Source: Alloiococcus otitis ATCC 51267 (GTDB taxonomy: Bacteria > Bacillota > Bacilli > Lactobacillales > Carnobacteriaceae_A). Taken from it: a stretch of 64,000 nt of DNA. The stretch spans positions 231,047 through 295,046 of the forward strand of contig NZ_JH992957.1 of the NCBI RefSeq assembly GCF_000315445.1, given 5' to 3'. Shown here one piece after another: positions 1,122-51,443 of the stretch (position 1 is its first letter; every line of letters starts with the position of its first letter). Made by a program: the position numbers and the translations under genes. The notes under the pieces were generated by a model that was not told where the DNA came from, did no database searches, and saw nothing but the letters and a program-made list of their open reading frames with translations.

Positions 1122-3116
1122 ATGACCAACCCAGATTCAGTTTTTGATTTACAGTCAAAATACCAACCTGCAGGTGACCAACCCCAAGCTATTAAAAAAA
1201 TTGCTCAAGGTATCTTAAACCACCAAAAAGAACAAGTCCTACTAGGGGGGACAGGGACAGGTAAGACCTTCACTATCTCCAATGTCATCCAGGAAGTCTC
1301 CAAGCCCACCTTGGTTATTGCTCATAACAAGACCCTAGCCGGACAGCTCTACACGGAAATCAAGGAACTATTCCCTAATAATGCAGTAGAGTACTTTGTT
1401 AGTTACTATGACTATTATCAACCTGAAGCTTATGTCCCTTCAACGGACACCTTTATTGAAAAAGATGCTTCTATTAATGACGAAATTGATAAATTGCGTC
1501 ACTCTGCCACATCTTCCATTCTGGAGCGACGGGACACCATTGTTGTTGCCTCTGTTTCTTGTATCTATGGTTTGGTCAATCCTCTCGACTACCGTGACCA
1601 TGTCCTTTCTTTAAGAGAAGGAACTGAAATGAGCCGGGATGAATTACTGGCTCGTTTGGTTGACATGCAATACGAACGGAATGACATTGACTTCCAACGG
1701 GGACGGTTCCGAGTCCGGGGCGATATCGTGGAGATTTTCTTGGTTTCCCGGAGTTCAGAGGCCATCCGGGTTGAGTTTTTTGGGGATGAAATCGACCGGA
1801 TCCGGGAAGTGGACGTTGTAACAGGTGAAGTAAGAGAATCCCTCAAGCATGTTGCCGTTTTCCCTGCCACCCACTTTGTCTCAAGCAAGGAACAAACGGA
1901 AGAAGCTATTCACTCCATCCGGGTGGAACTCAAAGAACAATTGAGCAAACTGAATGATGAAAATAAATTGTTAGAAGCCCAAAGACTAGAGCAAAGAACG
2001 GAATACGATATTGAAATGCTCAAGGAAATGGGCTATTGTTCAGGTATTGAAAACTACTCCCGTCACATGGATGGCAGAAAGCCGGGAGAACCCCCTTACA
2101 CCTTGCTTGACTTCTTCCCAGAAGATTCGCTTTTTATCATCGATGAGTCCCACATGACCATGCCCCAGATTCGGGGTATGTACAATGGGGACAAGGCCCG
2201 GAAGGAAATGCTGGTGGACTACGGTTTCCGCTTACCCTCTGCCTTAGACAACCGGCCCCTGCGCTTGGAAGAATTTGAAGACCGGGTGCCCCAAATTTGC
2301 TATATTTCAGCCACTCCAGCCGATTATGAATTAGATCGGTCCTCCCAAGTGGTGGAACAAATCATTCGTCCAACTGGCCTCTTAGACCCAGAGATTGAAG
2401 TGCGGCCGATTGAAGGTCAGATCGATGACCTCATTAATGAAATTCAAAAACGGATTGACTTGAATGAAAGAACCTTTATCACAACCCTAACCAAGAAGAT
2501 GGCAGAAGACTTGACCGACTACTTGAAAGAAGTAGGGATCAAGGTCCGCTACCTCCACAGTGATATCAAAACTTTGGAGCGGACTGAAATCATCCGGGAC
2601 CTCCGCCGTGGGGACTTTGATGTCTTGATTGGGATTAACTTGCTACGAGAAGGGTTGGATGTGCCGGAAGTTTCCTTAGTCGCCATTTTGGATGCGGACA
2701 AGGAAGGTTTCTTAAGAGGCACCCGGTCTTTGATCCAAACAGCAGGCCGGGCAGCCCGGAATGCCAGTGGTAAGGTCATCATGTATGCCGACCATATGAC
2801 GGATTCCATGAAAACTACAATCGATGAAACGGAAAGAAGACGGGCCATCCAACAGCAATTTAACGAAGACCACGGCATTACTCCTCAAACCATCCGCAAA
2901 GAAGTCCCTGACCTCATTAGTATTGCCAAGGTGGAAGACGACGATGGCCAAGGTTTGACCGAAGAAAAAATCAAAAAATTGTCCGTAGACGAAAGACGGG
3001 ACATGATCGACAGTATGGAATATGAAATGCAAGAAGCAGCTAAGAACCTTGAATTTGAGAAAGCAGCTAATTTAAGGGATGTTGTCATGGAAATTAAGAG
3101 TAAGTTTAAAGCTTAA
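1122..3116 (+). CDS. uvrB: excinuclease ABC subunit B
   Basis: A 664-residue DNA-damage recognition helicase of nucleotide excision repair. UvrA loads it on the lesion and it then recruits UvrC. Visible motifs are Walker A GGTGTGKT near residue 42, the aromatic damage-wedge hairpin ([11 protein letters not shown], about residue 95), the helicase DESH motif near 340, the late helicase motif QTAGRAARN, and a C-terminal UVR domain ([17 protein letters not shown]) that contacts UvrC. Length is normal. An AAGGAG site precedes the ATG. uvrA is not adjacent, so the gene stands alone here. The upstream leader has unusual secondary structure. Confidence 0.98.
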
Positions 3117-3147
3117 GTCTCTAGGCAAAGTGCTAAGGGTCAAAGGC

Positions 3148-3176
3148 TTGATTTTAACCATTCAGTATAGTATGAT
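3148..3176 (+). promoter_or_regulatory. sigma-A promoter of rpsO
   Basis: TTGATT (3148-3153), exact 17-base spacer, TATGAT (3171-3176). Transcription would start near 3183, giving a leader of about 100 bases before rpsO. Confidence 0.65.
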
Positions 3177-3220
3177 ATTTACCGTGTTGAACAAGCCAAG
3201 TAAGCACAGACCTTCGCTTG

Positions 3221-3253
3221 GATGGGCGATTCACCAACGCCATCTCAGTGAAT
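3221..3253 (+). promoter_or_regulatory. H-type pseudoknot in the rpsO leader, probable S15 autoregulatory site
   Basis: Stem 1 is GATGGGCG (3221-3228) with CGCCATC (3238-3244), one bulged G. Stem 2 is ATTCAC (3229-3234), inside the loop of stem 1, with GTGAAT (3248-3253). The interleaved order is that of an H-type pseudoknot. It ends about 20 bases before the ribosome binding site of rpsO. S15 is known to control its own mRNA through leader structures, including a pseudoknot in E. coli. The link here is inference. Confidence 0.5.
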
Positions 3254-3283
3254 GGATTCAATGAAGAGAAAGAGGTGGAACTT

Positions 3284-3553
3284 ATGGCAGTTTCTCAGGA
3301 AAGAAAGAACGAAATCATTAAGGAATATGCACTTCACGAAGGAGACACTGGGTCTCCAGAAGTCCAAATTGCCGTTTTAACTGAGGAAATCACGGAATTA
3401 AACGAGCACTCTAAAGTGCACAAAAAAGATTTCCATTCAAAACGAGGCTTATTGAAAAAGATCGGTCGCCGTCGTAATTTGTTAGCATACTTGCGAAATA
3501 AAGATATTACACGCTACCGTGAATTGATTAATCGTTTAGGATTACGTCGTTAA
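3284..3553 (+). CDS. rpsO: 30S ribosomal protein S15
   Basis: An 89-residue primary 16S rRNA-binding protein of the small subunit platform. The start [12 protein letters not shown] and the signatures GDTGSPEVQ and HSKRGLL are typical, as is the C-terminal [13 protein letters not shown] chose the ATG at 3284 because AGAGGTGG lies just upstream and the length equals the family norm. A longer frame from 3218 would run through the structured leader. It has its own promoter, a candidate autoregulatory pseudoknot and its own terminator. It is followed by pnp, as in many bacteria. Confidence 0.98.
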
Positions 3554-3565
3554 AATAAAGTAAAG

Positions 3566-3600
3566 ATAAGCGGGGTTCGGGTGAATCTCGCTTATTTTTT
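3566..3600 (+). terminator. rho-independent terminator between rpsO and pnp
   Basis: ATAAGCG (3566-3572) pairs with CGCTTAT (3589-3595), with extra pairing inside, followed by a T-run. No strong promoter is visible behind it, so pnp may depend on partial read-through. Confidence 0.8.
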
Positions 3601-3615
3601 AAGCAAACAAGATAG

Positions 3616-3687
3616 CATTACACAAGCTACTATACAAATATGAGTATTTAGGCGAGAATATTGATATTTGTAGAGTAGCGGGTAATG
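3616..3687 (+). promoter_or_regulatory. long stem-loop in the pnp leader
   Basis: Three aligned stem segments: CATTAC (3616-3621) with GTAATG (3682-3687), GCTACT (3626-3631) with AGTAGC (3674-3679), and TACAAATAT (3633-3641) with ATATTTGTA (3664-3672), with more pairing at the top. In E. coli a comparable pnp leader duplex is cut by RNase III and used for PNPase autocontrol. A similar role here is inference. Confidence 0.5.
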
Positions 3688-3706
3688 TTCAGAAAGGGAG
3701 TAGACT

Positions 3707-5827
3707 ATGACCAAAAAAGTATTTACCAAAGAATTTGCTGGACGAACCCTCCAAGTCGAAGTGGGCCAGCTTGCTAAGCAGGCTAATGCAGCAGTCTTAA
3801 TCCGGTATGACAACACTGCTGTCTTGACTGCAGTAGTCAACGGGGATGAGCCCAGCACCATGCCCTTCTTCCCCCTCATGGTGAATTATGAAGAGAAAAT
3901 GTACTCAGTGGGTAAAATTCCAGGTGGCTTTATTAAACGGGAAGGACGTCCGTCAGAACACGCCACTCTAACTGCCCGCTTAATTGACCGTCCTATTCGT
4001 CCCCTCTTCCCAGAAGGCTTTCAGTATGAAGTACAAATTTACAACACGGTGATGTCCGTTGACCCTGACTGTTCGCCTGAAATGGCCGCCATGTTTGGCT
4101 CTTCTCTAGCCCTTTCCATTTCTAGCCTGCCTTTTAATGGCCCCATAGCTGGTGTTAATGTCGGTCGGGTTGATGGGAAATTGATCATCAATCCAACTGA
4201 AGAAGAGGATGCAGCCTCTGATATCCACTTAACTGTAGCTGGTACTAAGGAAGCTATCAATATGGTAGAATCTGGAGCTGACCAGGTTTCTGAAGAAGAT
4301 ATGCTAGAGGCCCTCTTGTTTGGCCACCAAGCCATCCAAGACTTGTGTCTTTTCCAAGAAGAGATTATCGCTGAAATTGGCCAAGAAAAAATGGACTATG
4401 ACCTGGTCTTGCCGGATCCCGAATTGGTAGCTGAAGTGAAAGACCAGTTTAACGACCAAATGACCCAGGCCATCCAGACCAAGGACAAACAAGAGCGGGG
4501 TGCCAAGATTGAGGCCGTTAAAGAGGCCATCTTGGCTTACTACGAGGAAAAATACCAGGACCAAGACGAGGAATTCTTGGCCGACTTAGCCTCTGATGTC
4601 AAAGAAATAGCTGATGACCTGGAAAAAGAAGAAGTTAGACGCTTGATCACTGAAGAAAAAGTGAGACCAGACGGCCGGAAAGTCGATGAAATCCGTGACC
4701 TAGAATCAGAAGTAGGCCTCTTTGCCCGGGTTCATGGATCCGGTCTCTTTACAAGGGGGCAAACCCAGGCCTTGTCCGCCTTAACCCTAGGCCCATTAAA
4801 TGAACACCAAGTGATTGACGGCTTGAGTTCAGAAGAAGAAAAACGCTTTATCCACCACTATAACTTCCCAAGTTATTCAGTCGGGGAGACCGGTCGGCCG
4901 AAGTCACCAGGCCGGCGGGAAATTGGCCACGGTGCCTTGGGTGAGCGAGCTTTAGAACCCATCATCCCAAGCCAGGAAAATTTCCCTTACACTATTCGAC
5001 TGGTAGCAGAAGTCCTTGAATCCAATGGATCTTCTTCCCAAGCTTCCATCTGTGCCGGCTCCCTTGCCTTGATGGACGGTGGGGTTCCCATTAAGGCGCC
5101 AGTAGGTGGGATTGCCATGGGGCTTGTTATGAATAGCCCTGAAGAATATACTGTCTTAACAGACATCCAAGGTTTGGAAGACCACCTAGGAGACATGGAC
5201 TTTAAGGTAGCTGGGACCCGGCAAGGTATTACAGCCTTACAGATGGACATTAAAATTGAAGGGATCACCGAGGCGATTTTAAAAGAGGCCTTGGCTTCTG
5301 CTAAAGAGGCACGCTTGTCCGTTTTAGACAATATGGAAAAAGCAATCGCCCAGCCTCGCCCAGAACTCAGCCCTTATGCGCCTAAAATCAAGTCGATTAA
5401 AATTAAGCCCGACCAGATTAAAATTGTCATCGGTAAGGGCGGGGACCAAATTAACGAAATCATTGATGAAACTGGTGTTAAAATTGATATCGACGATGAC
5501 GGAAATGTTTCTGTTTATGGTCAAGACCAGGCCATGATTGACCGGGCTATTGAAATTATTGAAGAATTAACCGAAGAAGTGGAAGTCGGCAAAATCTACA
5601 AGGGTAAGGTTGTTCGAATTGAAAAATTCGGGGCCTTTGTTGAAATTATCAAGGGAACTGATGGCTTAGTCCACATCTCAGAACTAGCAGACGGTTTTGT
5701 GAGAAATGTCGAAGATGTTGTTAAGTTAGGAGAAGAGCTGGAAGTCCTAGTGACTGAAATAGACAGCAAGGGCCGGGTCAACTTATCCCGTAAACAGGCC
5801 CTTCATAAACTCGAAAAAGAGTCATAA
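3707..5827 (+). CDS. pnp: polynucleotide phosphorylase
   Basis: A 706-residue phosphate-dependent 3'-5' exoribonuclease that forms trimers and works in mRNA decay. Domain order: first RNase PH fold (about 1-210, with [16 protein letters not shown]), helical linker, second catalytic RNase PH fold (about 310-540, with [11 protein letters not shown]), KH domain (about 550-615, GXXG loop IGKGGDQI), and S1 domain (about 625-700, [15 protein letters not shown]). Length is normal and all domains are present. An AAAGGGAG site precedes the ATG. The gene follows rpsO across a terminator and has a long stem-loop leader suitable for autocontrol. Confidence 0.98.
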
Positions 5828-49566: not shown

Positions 49567-50058
49567 ATGTGCGCCCGGCATGGGTGACAACTTGGTGGTG
49601 AAAGTCCATTGCAGGCCTGGCAGTAGGAACTGTTAGCTGAAGGCAAGGGTGTCCATCGTGAGGTGGAATCTGAAGGAAGCTGGAGGCAAACACTCGCACT
49701 GACGAACAGAAACTTCATATCAAGGCTGATTTGGGATGGATGAGCTTGCATAACAAAGTAAAGTCCAATACTGCACAAGTCCCTTTCAGTAAATGAAGCA
49801 GTGACATGAGTGGAAGGTTGTCACACCTTACTCGGGGAGGTCTCACTAGCGTTTAGTAGTAACAACGAATAGTGAGAAGTCAGCCGAGGTCATAGTAGCT
49901 ACGTTGTAGCGAAGGACTGAACAATATTCATACAAAGTATAGAACGGAGGTTAAAGTTTACGAATAGGACAGAAAACAATCGAAGAGATTGGCAATCGGT
50001 GGAGAGAATAGGTGGAACCGAAAGGGTAAGCCGATGCGTCTAGTAAACTTTAGGTGAA

Positions 50059-51354
50059 ATGACAGAAATGTATCGTAAGTCTCCAAACTTAATGGAGCAA
50101 GTTGTTGACAGAAGAAACTTGGAAACAGCAGCCAAAGCCGTTAAACGGAACAAAGGCGCTGCAGGTATTGACGGTATGACCGTTTTTGAGATAGAGGAGC
50201 ACATTCAAGCGTATTATCAACCCTTACGGAAGAAATTACTTGATGGAACGTATAAGCCTCAACCAGTTAAACGAGTAGAAATACCAAAGCCGAATGGAGA
50301 AAAACGAAAGTTAGGTATACCTTGTGTGCGGGATAGAGTTGTTCAACAAGCCATACGGCAAGTAATTGAACCGATTATAGACCCGCACTTCTATGACAAC
50401 AGTCACGGATTCCGACCAGGGAAAAGCACGCACAGTGCTCTCAAGCAATGTGCACAGTATTATAAAGAAGGCTATCGTGTTGTAGTTGATTGTGACCTCA
50501 AACAATGCTTTGACACGCTCAATCACGACAAACTTATCTATTATCTTGAACAGTACATCCAAAATAAAATGATACTGAAAATTATCCGTAAGTTTTTGAG
50601 AGCGGGTGTAATTGATTTGACTAGCGAATTTATCGCAAGTGAAACAGGGGCACCACAAGGTGGTGTTCTATCACCGCTTTTGAGTAATGTGTACTTACAT
50701 GAACTGGATAAAGAGTTGGTTAACCGTGGTCACCGATTTGTCCGATACGCAGATGACTTTGTCATCTACGTTAAATCAAAACGAGCCGGTGAACGGGTAA
50801 TGAACAGCATCACACGCTTTATTGAAAAAGACTTAAAGTTAATCGTCAATCAAGACAAAAGCCAGGTTGGGTCTCCTACCCGTTTAAAGTTTTTGAGCTG
50901 TCTGATGAAGCAAGTGAATGGGGATTATCGTTTTATCCCAACCAAAGAAGCCAAGCAGAAATTCAAACGCAGATTGAGAAAGCTGACCAGTCGTAAACGG
51001 CCAGGTACTTTTAAAAAGATAATGACTGAAATTAATCGAGTCACCCGCGGTTGGATTAATTACTTTGGTTTAGGCTTCATTAAAAGCTTTATCAAAGAAG
51101 TTGAGCAATGGTTAAATCACCGTATCAGACAGCTGATTCTTAAACGGTGGAAACGTCCACGAACTATTATACCAAAGTTGGAACAATATGGACTGGACTT
51201 AGATTCAGCCAAACGGATTGCGTATTCACGCAAAAAGTACTGGCGACTGTCATGCACACATGAATTTCATCGTGCAATAACAACAGAAAGACTCAGCAAG
51301 TGGGGCTTAGTTCCACTAAGCACTATCGCTGAGTCTGCTTACGCAAGATATTGA
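50059..51354 (+). CDS. ltrA: group II intron reverse transcriptase/maturase
   Basis: 431 residues. Reverse transcriptase domains include GIPCVRDRVVQQAIRQVIEP, SHGFRPGKSTHSAL, the DCDLKQCFDTLNH motif, PQGGVLSPLLSNVYL and the catalytic YADD box (FVRYADDFVIYV). The maturase domain X follows (GWINYFGLGF). There is no C-terminal HNH endonuclease, so integration would use replication-associated or single-stranded DNA. The frame is intact, so the element may be active. Codon use differs slightly from neighbours (more AAA, CGA/CGG and TTA codons), as expected of an imported element. Confidence 0.95.
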   Translation: MTEMYRKSPNLMEQVVDRRNLETAAKAVKRNKGAAGIDGMTVFEIEEHIQAYYQPLRKKLLDGTYKPQPVKRVEIPKPNGEKRKLGIPCVRDRVVQQAIRQVIEPIIDPHFYDNSHGFRPGKSTHSALKQCAQYYKEGYRVVVDCDLKQCFDTLNHDKLIYYLEQYIQNKMILKIIRKFLRAGVIDLTSEFIASETGAPQGGVLSPLLSNVYLHELDKELVNRGHRFVRYADDFVIYVKSKRAGERVMNSITRFIEKDLKLIVNQDKSQVGSPTRLKFLSCLMKQVNGDYRFIPTKEAKQKFKRRLRKLTSRKRPGTFKKIMTEINRVTRGWINYFGLGFIKSFIKEVEQWLNHRIRQLILKRWKRPRTIIPKLEQYGLDLDSAKRIAYSRKKYWRLSCTHEFHRAITTERLSKWGLVPLSTIAESAYARY

Positions 51355-51424
51355 ACCGCCGTGTACGGAACCGTACGCACGGTGGTGTGAGAGGTCGACT
51401 AGCCAATTAATGGCTAGTCTCCTA
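51354..51424 (+). ncRNA. intron domains V and VI (catalytic core and branch-point helix)
   Basis: Domain V: a 34-base hairpin with CCGCCGTG paired to CACGGTGG, a two-base CG bulge and a terminal TACG-GAAC-CGTA. Domain VI: GACTAGCC paired to GGCTAGTC, with a candidate branch-point A in the CCTACTCGAT end. Confidence 0.8.
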
Positions 51425-51443
51425 CTCGATTTGAGATATTTAA

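Follow-up and report, generated by a model that had tools for sequence, protein, structure and literature searches.

The rpsO leader of the window is very likely the known Bacilli S15 operator, and its P2 loop probably pairs with the Shine-Dalgarno region

The leader of rpsO in the window, by which we mean the whole 64,000-nucleotide stretch of DNA analysed, is a nested structure in which a basal helix, P1, is followed by a one-by-one mismatch and by a second helix, P2, with a nine-base loop, as established by covariation among related leaders. On grounds of sequence and structure it is very likely that this leader is the known S15 operator of the Firmicutes or Bacilli, so that S15 binding and repression are predicted for it. 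We propose that the Bacilli (Firmicutes) S15 leader is a cis-acting operator in the rpsO 5' UTR in which S15 would stabilise a pseudoknot between the P2 loop and the Shine-Dalgarno (SD) sequence, a reading to which we give a probability of about 0.7. The interest of the window's leader rests on the correlation between loop and SD.

The leader comprises about 100 bases (3184-3283), located between uvrB and rpsO and directly 5' of the rpsO start at 3284. In the list of open reading frames, the forward strand carries a gene at 1122-3116 and another at 3707-5827, which we take to be uvrB and pnp from recognition of their protein sequences, pnp being the next gene downstream of rpsO. The rpsO gene itself (3284-3553, forward strand) is an open reading frame for ribosomal protein S15 of 89 amino acids, with phmmer matches to S15 chains, the best being 7nhk_p at 1.2e-43. 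A promoter-like site, TTGATT-17-TATGAT (3148-3176, forward strand), scored 9/12 in a consensus scan, and transcription would be expected to start from it at about 3183-3186. Since the scan found two such sites in the region against 1.6 expected from shuffles, this site is weak evidence when taken alone; its position agrees with the start of the structured leader. A hairpin followed by a T run 3' of rpsO (3562-3599, forward strand; -20.6 kcal/mol, z -5.95) is a probable intrinsic terminator, and is absent from the output of the consensus scan.

The comparison was based on rpsO loci located through the S15 protein, which was found in 25 of 27 genomes of the window's family and in 196 of 198 genomes of a sample of its order. 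A search of a genome collection with the same protein gave 524 places, of which the best 80 were used as named loci. The resulting 116 rpsO loci gave 103 distinct leaders of 98 bases once 13 identical duplicates had been dropped. These 103 leaders align along the whole element, from Lactobacillales to Bacillaceae, with nine invariant columns, and the leaders of Alkalibacterium and Marinilactibacillus also occur in some members of the window's family, which points to Lactobacillales as the order of the window. Two record titles are at odds with their sequences: L029, titled Streptococcus sp., has a leader identical to that of Carnobacterium maltaromaticum (L028), and the leader of L067, titled Roseburia sp., resembles those of Oceanobacillus and Virgibacillus; mislabelled records or foreign contigs may be the cause.

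In the window, the 5' arm of P1 (3211-3218) pairs with 3247-3255, leaving U3253 bulged, and the 5' arm of P2 (3220-3228) pairs with 3238-3245, leaving G3226 bulged. The P2 loop, AUUCACCAA, occupies 3229-3237 and is among the most conserved parts of the alignment. In the 103 leaders, 89.3% of the cells of the nested P1 and P2 pairs are paired, compared with 79.6% (sd 0.5) in shuffles; 177 cells show two-sided changes, compared with 52.3 (sd 9.5), and such changes occur at 11 of the 16 pairs. None of 500 shuffles was as high on any of five measures, and the proposed register is the best among slid versions, which pair in 27-49% of cells. The pair 3215/3250 in P1 illustrates the exchange, with UA in 70 leaders, CG in 20, GC in two, AU and UG in one each and no pair in nine. 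The basal G-C pair of P2 is kept in all 103 leaders; for three of the middle pairs of this helix, pairing is missing in 26-31 leaders each. The combined fold of 3211-3255 (-16.7 kcal/mol) is also the minimum free energy structure, and RNAalifold recovered P1 and P2 in part, with 12 pairs. The stability of the whole leader (118 nt) is ordinary (z -0.25), and that of 3183-3262 reaches z -1.41; the support for the structure is therefore covariation and not energy.

Upstream of P1, the fold of 3183-3262 contains a further hairpin, P0 (GUGUU/AGCAC, 3184-3207). Measured against letter shuffles, the 32 nucleotides before P1 have a mean z of -1.61 in the 46 leaders classed as Lactobacillales and of -0.39 in the 57 others, and z falls below -1 in 32 of the former as against 15 of the latter. 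P0 thus appears to be common in Lactobacillales leaders and weak elsewhere, and the junction may gain a helix from it. In the window's leader, CCAAG at 3196-3200 can also pair with the conserved CUUGG at 3217-3221, on the border of P1 and P2, which would give a possible competing fold.

The original prediction had placed an H-type pseudoknot here, in the manner of the E. coli S15 site, composed of GATGGGCG (3221-3228) with CGCCATC (3238-3244) and of ATTCAC (3229-3234) with GTGAAT (3248-3253). The arms are present as written and do interleave, and the second ends 18 bases before the ribosome site GAGGTGG (3272-3278). Compensatory change across relatives had been named as the test, and it separates the two stems. 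Stem 1, seven pairs with G3226 bulged, is conserved as part of hairpin P2. Stem 2 is not supported, because the compensatory changes favour a nested helix sharing its 3' arm: GTGAAT lies within the 3' arm of P1 and covaries with 3213-3218. We rejected stem 2 since only 59.7% of its cells are paired, compared with 89.3% for nested P1 and P2, and its central C-G pair (3232/3250) is broken in 82 of 103 leaders. The six-base complementarity, perfect in the window, amounts to a duplex of -4.1 kcal/mol taken alone, and contiguous Watson-Crick runs of five or more between the loop and the P1 3' arm occur in just two of the 103 leaders, the window's own (six) and L114 (five). It is true that the 59.7% exceeds the 30-40% of slid registers, and that only 2 of 500 shuffles were as high in percentage paired and none in covariation score; we take this excess to reflect the conserved UCACC loop and the shared P1 arm. 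The remaining counts do not rise above shuffles, which were as high in 343 of 500 cases for two-sided pairs, 64 for two-sided cells and 462 for pair types. Given also its competition with the covarying P1, we regard the pseudoknot as originally drawn as hardly credible. The observation behind it was a good one, with the wrong partner assigned to the loop: a pseudoknot may well be involved, through the SD and not through GTGAAT.

The base of P2 in the window consists of G3220.U3245 followed by G3221-C3244 (5' side at 3220-3221), a GU/GC motif that is nearly invariant in the covariation alignment: the first position is G.U in 92 of the 103 leaders, A-U in seven, U-A in two and unpaired in two, and the second is G-C in all 103. 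The motif is like that described for the S15 site in helix 22 of 16S rRNA (PMC4684408), where S15 recognises a three-way junction and, roughly one turn of the helix from it, the GU/GC motif (PMC4684408). According to the same source, the rpsO leader of G. kaustophilus appears to mimic both the junction and the motif (PMC4684408). Binding and repression by S15 have been published for the G. kaustophilus/B. stearothermophilus leader (PMC4684408, PMC5100602, PMC10931766), the B. stearothermophilus operator is described as a three-way junction (PMC10931766, PMC8470358), and a Firmicutes operator was recovered in the survey of PMC4137082.

A covariance model of P1 and P2, termed R1, was built from 95 leaders, eight more of the 103 having been removed as identical in the core. 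R1 matched 161 of 299 Bacilli genomes at E<=0.001, with one match each, a lower bound because strict filters were used. Two genomes (G486 and G491) encode an S15 that is 100% identical to the chain of PDB 1A32, which we take to be that of B. stearothermophilus. R1 matches their rpsO leaders (L233 and L234) at E 1.2e-14, and ten other searched loci of the Geobacillus-like family at 1e-14 or better. The presence of a match before rpsO in the two genomes with the 1A32 S15 makes it very likely that the leader is the known Firmicutes S15 operator. The covarying P1 and P2, the GU/GC motif and the kinship with the published S15 leader thus speak for the broader claim of the original prediction, namely a structured rpsO leader and probable S15 feedback site. 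Its suggestion of a solution distinct to the window's lineage is contradicted by the spread of the same element over Bacilli, including the two genomes with the 1A32 S15. S15 leaders are a textbook example of the same problem being solved by unrelated RNAs; with the window's leader assigned to the Bacilli family, one presumed new solution drops out.

It could be argued that the leader serves some other task, such as mRNA stability, ribosome standby, or control by RNase III or PNPase, and is no S15 operator. S15 binding by the window's leader is itself a prediction, and pnp lies next downstream; nevertheless, the near invariance of the GU/GC motif and the occurrence of the same element before rpsO in the two genomes with the 1A32 S15, a group with published S15 control, make such an explanation very improbable.

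The output for the 138 genomes that R1 did not match names 20, which all belong to the window's order (family f4 with 17, f9 with two and f5 with one). rpsO is present in the searched members of these three families despite the lack of an R1 match under the strict filters, and their S15 leader may have been lost or replaced. In family f24, L171 and L172 match the model over its full length, but the match of L173-L175 is confined to P2 (positions 9-42), and P1 may be altered in these three leaders.

We consider it likely, from sequence comparison, that the P2 loop pairs with the SD. In the window, UUCACC of the loop (3230-3235) is complementary to GGUGGA (3274-3279) in the SD region GAGGUGGA (3272-3279), with four Watson-Crick pairs, one U.G and one U-A, and a duplex energy of -8.1 kcal/mol. 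For a wider view, 109 leaders were added from genomes matching R1, drawn from 30 returned loci (including that of the window) and 80 hand-picked loci, the latter spread over families by place and family code and chosen before their sequence was known; the window's own copy (L134) was left out. Nine of the 109 were set aside, as their rpsO start was not located (L121, L123, L124, L125, L138, L141, L142, L219 and L226). With the loops assigned from alignment columns, the 103 leaders found by S15 protein and the 100 added ones form a set of 203, in which the genomes of L132/L094 and of L131/L072 are probably counted twice; it reduces to 173 distinct loop/SD combinations without exact repeats. Rarer loops may be under-represented among the added leaders, because R1 includes the loop letters. 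The 103 protein-found leaders are free of this bias and give the same picture.

Loop and SD share at least four contiguous Watson-Crick pairs in all 173 distinct combinations and in all 103 protein-found leaders, and the control targets reach four pairs with the loop in 32 of 103 leaders (the stretch just upstream of the SD) and in 19 of 103 (the 5' 20 bases). The mean run is 4.68. Exchanging loops among leaders lowers it to 4.38 (sd 0.04; none of 1000 rounds reached 4.68), and shuffling the loop letters lowers it to 3.40 (sd 0.06). Most of the gain over shuffled letters is kept after swapping (4.38 of 4.68), which is to be expected where one loop type and one SD type dominate. In the 203 leaders, the loop carries CACC in 149, CUCC in 52 and something else in two. 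The SD lacks GGUG in 31 leaders, all of which have CUCC loops and GGAG in the SD, and never where the loop is CACC (0 of 149); the remaining 21 CUCC loops face SDs containing both GGAG and GGUG. The distinct combinations are divided in the same manner: 122 have CACC, none of these with a GGUG-less SD, 21 have CUCC with both motifs, 28 have CUCC with a GGUG-less SD, and two are of other types. Among the protein-found leaders the corresponding counts are 77, 0, 19, 5 and 2, all five GGUG-less SDs being opposite CUCC. Unusual loops come with matching SDs: AACCC with GGGUG in L022 (ACCC/GGGU matched), UCACUC with GGGUGA in L051 (CACUC/GGGUG, one U.G), UCUCC with GGAGA in L096 and, among the added leaders, CCACCCC with GAGGGGUG in L199 (CACCCC/GGGGUG matched).

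The statistical weight of this correlation depends on how kinship is treated. Fisher values for loop against SD class are 7e-23 for the 203 leaders and 5e-4 for the protein-found set, both inflated since kinship is ignored. With loop-SD pairs fixed in one register, 86.8% are paired, compared with 85.4% in shuffles (7 of 500 as high); the covariation score was equalled in 22 of 500 shuffles and the number of two-sided pairs in 267 of 500. This count is weak because the SD varies hardly at all and the classes pair in different registers; class counts and swap tests were used for that reason. The putative helix is also short, at four to seven pairs. A tree of pnp and S15 was obtained by a quick search under a simple model from 151 of 157 rows, six without a pnp match having been dropped, and two of the 151 with a loop of neither class were left uncounted. 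It is better resolved than the tree of rpsO alone. On this tree the SD class changes at least ten times and the loop class at least eight times; over six independent, well-supported pairs, 4.1 changed the same way, 0.0 the opposite way and 1.9 showed no difference (p 0.06-0.125, median 0.125). On the poorly resolved rpsO tree, three independent pairs gave 1.7 the same way and 0.0 the opposite way (p 0.5-1). The covariation of loop and SD on trees is consistent in direction and not significant.

From these elements we infer a mechanism in which free S15 that 16S rRNA has not taken up would bind the leader in the way it binds 16S rRNA, recognising both the GU/GC motif with which P2 begins and a junction at a distance of about one helical turn. 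Its binding would stabilise the pairing of the P2 loop with the SD. The loop would then act as a built-in anti-Shine-Dalgarno, through which an excess of S15 would close the ribosome site and reduce further S15 production. Uptake of S15 by rRNA would let the weak loop-SD helix open, after which the 16S tail could compete for the SD. Should the loop-SD pairing be confirmed, it would provide a concrete off-state for the Bacilli family that is testable with natural loops.

The main rival is steric hindrance without loop-SD pairing. In that explanation, P1 and P2 form the S15 site, and what keeps the loop constant is either a contact with the protein or its likeness to the 16S 3' tail. Complementarity of the loop to the SD would then be incidental, and bound S15 would repress by its presence. 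PMC10931766 states that a junction stabilised by S15 may prevent ribosome binding; in addition, few parts of the leader are as conserved as the loop, and the tree tests fall short of significance. Against it stands that the loop class tracks the SD class and that odd loops come with matching odd SDs; we hold the steric explanation to be unlikely and prefer the S15-stabilised pseudoknot. A stronger form of the pseudoknot reading can be hypothesised, in which the P2 loop is an exchangeable anti-SD clamped by S15, the CACC/GGUG and CUCC/GGAG classes co-evolve along with rare compensated variants, and repression is due to this pairing and not to a nested three-way junction, all of this being previously undescribed; we advance it only tentatively and with more doubt than belief. 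In the part of the S15 literature covered, which extends neither to the original operator papers nor to the Bacilli survey, we found no mention of a loop-SD pseudoknot in Bacilli, and it may well be published.

The closest known system is the G. kaustophilus/B. stearothermophilus rpsO leader (Gk-mRNA), which shares with the window's leader its place upstream of rpsO, the P1, P2 and loop matched by R1, and the GU/GC motif. A probable further likeness is that the SD would lie within the element, all previously characterised structures being said to encompass a predicted SD (PMC4137082). Within this group the window's leader differs by the addition of P0 and by an SD of GAGGUGGA where L233 has GGGAGGUGAA. 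For the Gk-mRNA operator, published descriptions speak of a three-helix or multi-stem junction mimicking h20/h21/h22; in the window's leader P1, P2 and the putative loop-SD helix would make up three helices, with P0 as an extra one in Lactobacillales.

The E. coli rpsO pseudoknot resembles what is predicted for the window's leader in S15 feedback on rpsO, in a pseudoknot near the ribosome site and in the GU/GC motif. It differs in its helices and in that the P2 loop of the window would pair with the SD itself; moreover, no such Rfam family is found at E 10. Rfam holds an S15 family, presumably that of the E. coli rpsO pseudoknot under RF00114, and a search of Rfam 15 gave no leader family at the gathering level. 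Relaxing the threshold to E<=10 on 3100-3320 brought up two unrelated families and again no leader family. As Rfam 15 has no match to the window's leader, a model of the Bacilli S15 leader family would help annotation. The E. coli pseudoknot is described as embracing the SD and the start codon and trapping the 30S subunit (PMC10931766). The mycobacterial rpsO 5' UTR also has a pseudoknot with a GU/GC motif (PMC8470358, PMC10931766), which, compared by description only, differs in being placed upstream of the initiation site. In Thermus thermophilus and Rhizobium, too, S15 controls its own gene through an rpsO leader that imitates a portion of the rRNA site (PMC4684408); again by description only, these operators have other secondary structures.

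Two further RNA elements were observed in the window. The pnp leader contains a long hairpin (3614-3689), the stretch 3600-3706 folding at -31.8 kcal/mol (z -7.62, 0 of 200 shuffles as good). By analogy with the pnp of E. coli, the hairpin is possibly a processing or autocontrol site of pnp. Lastly, Rfam matches to group II intron domains (D1-D4-3, D1-D4-1 and Intron_gpII) are found at 49652-51430 on the forward strand.
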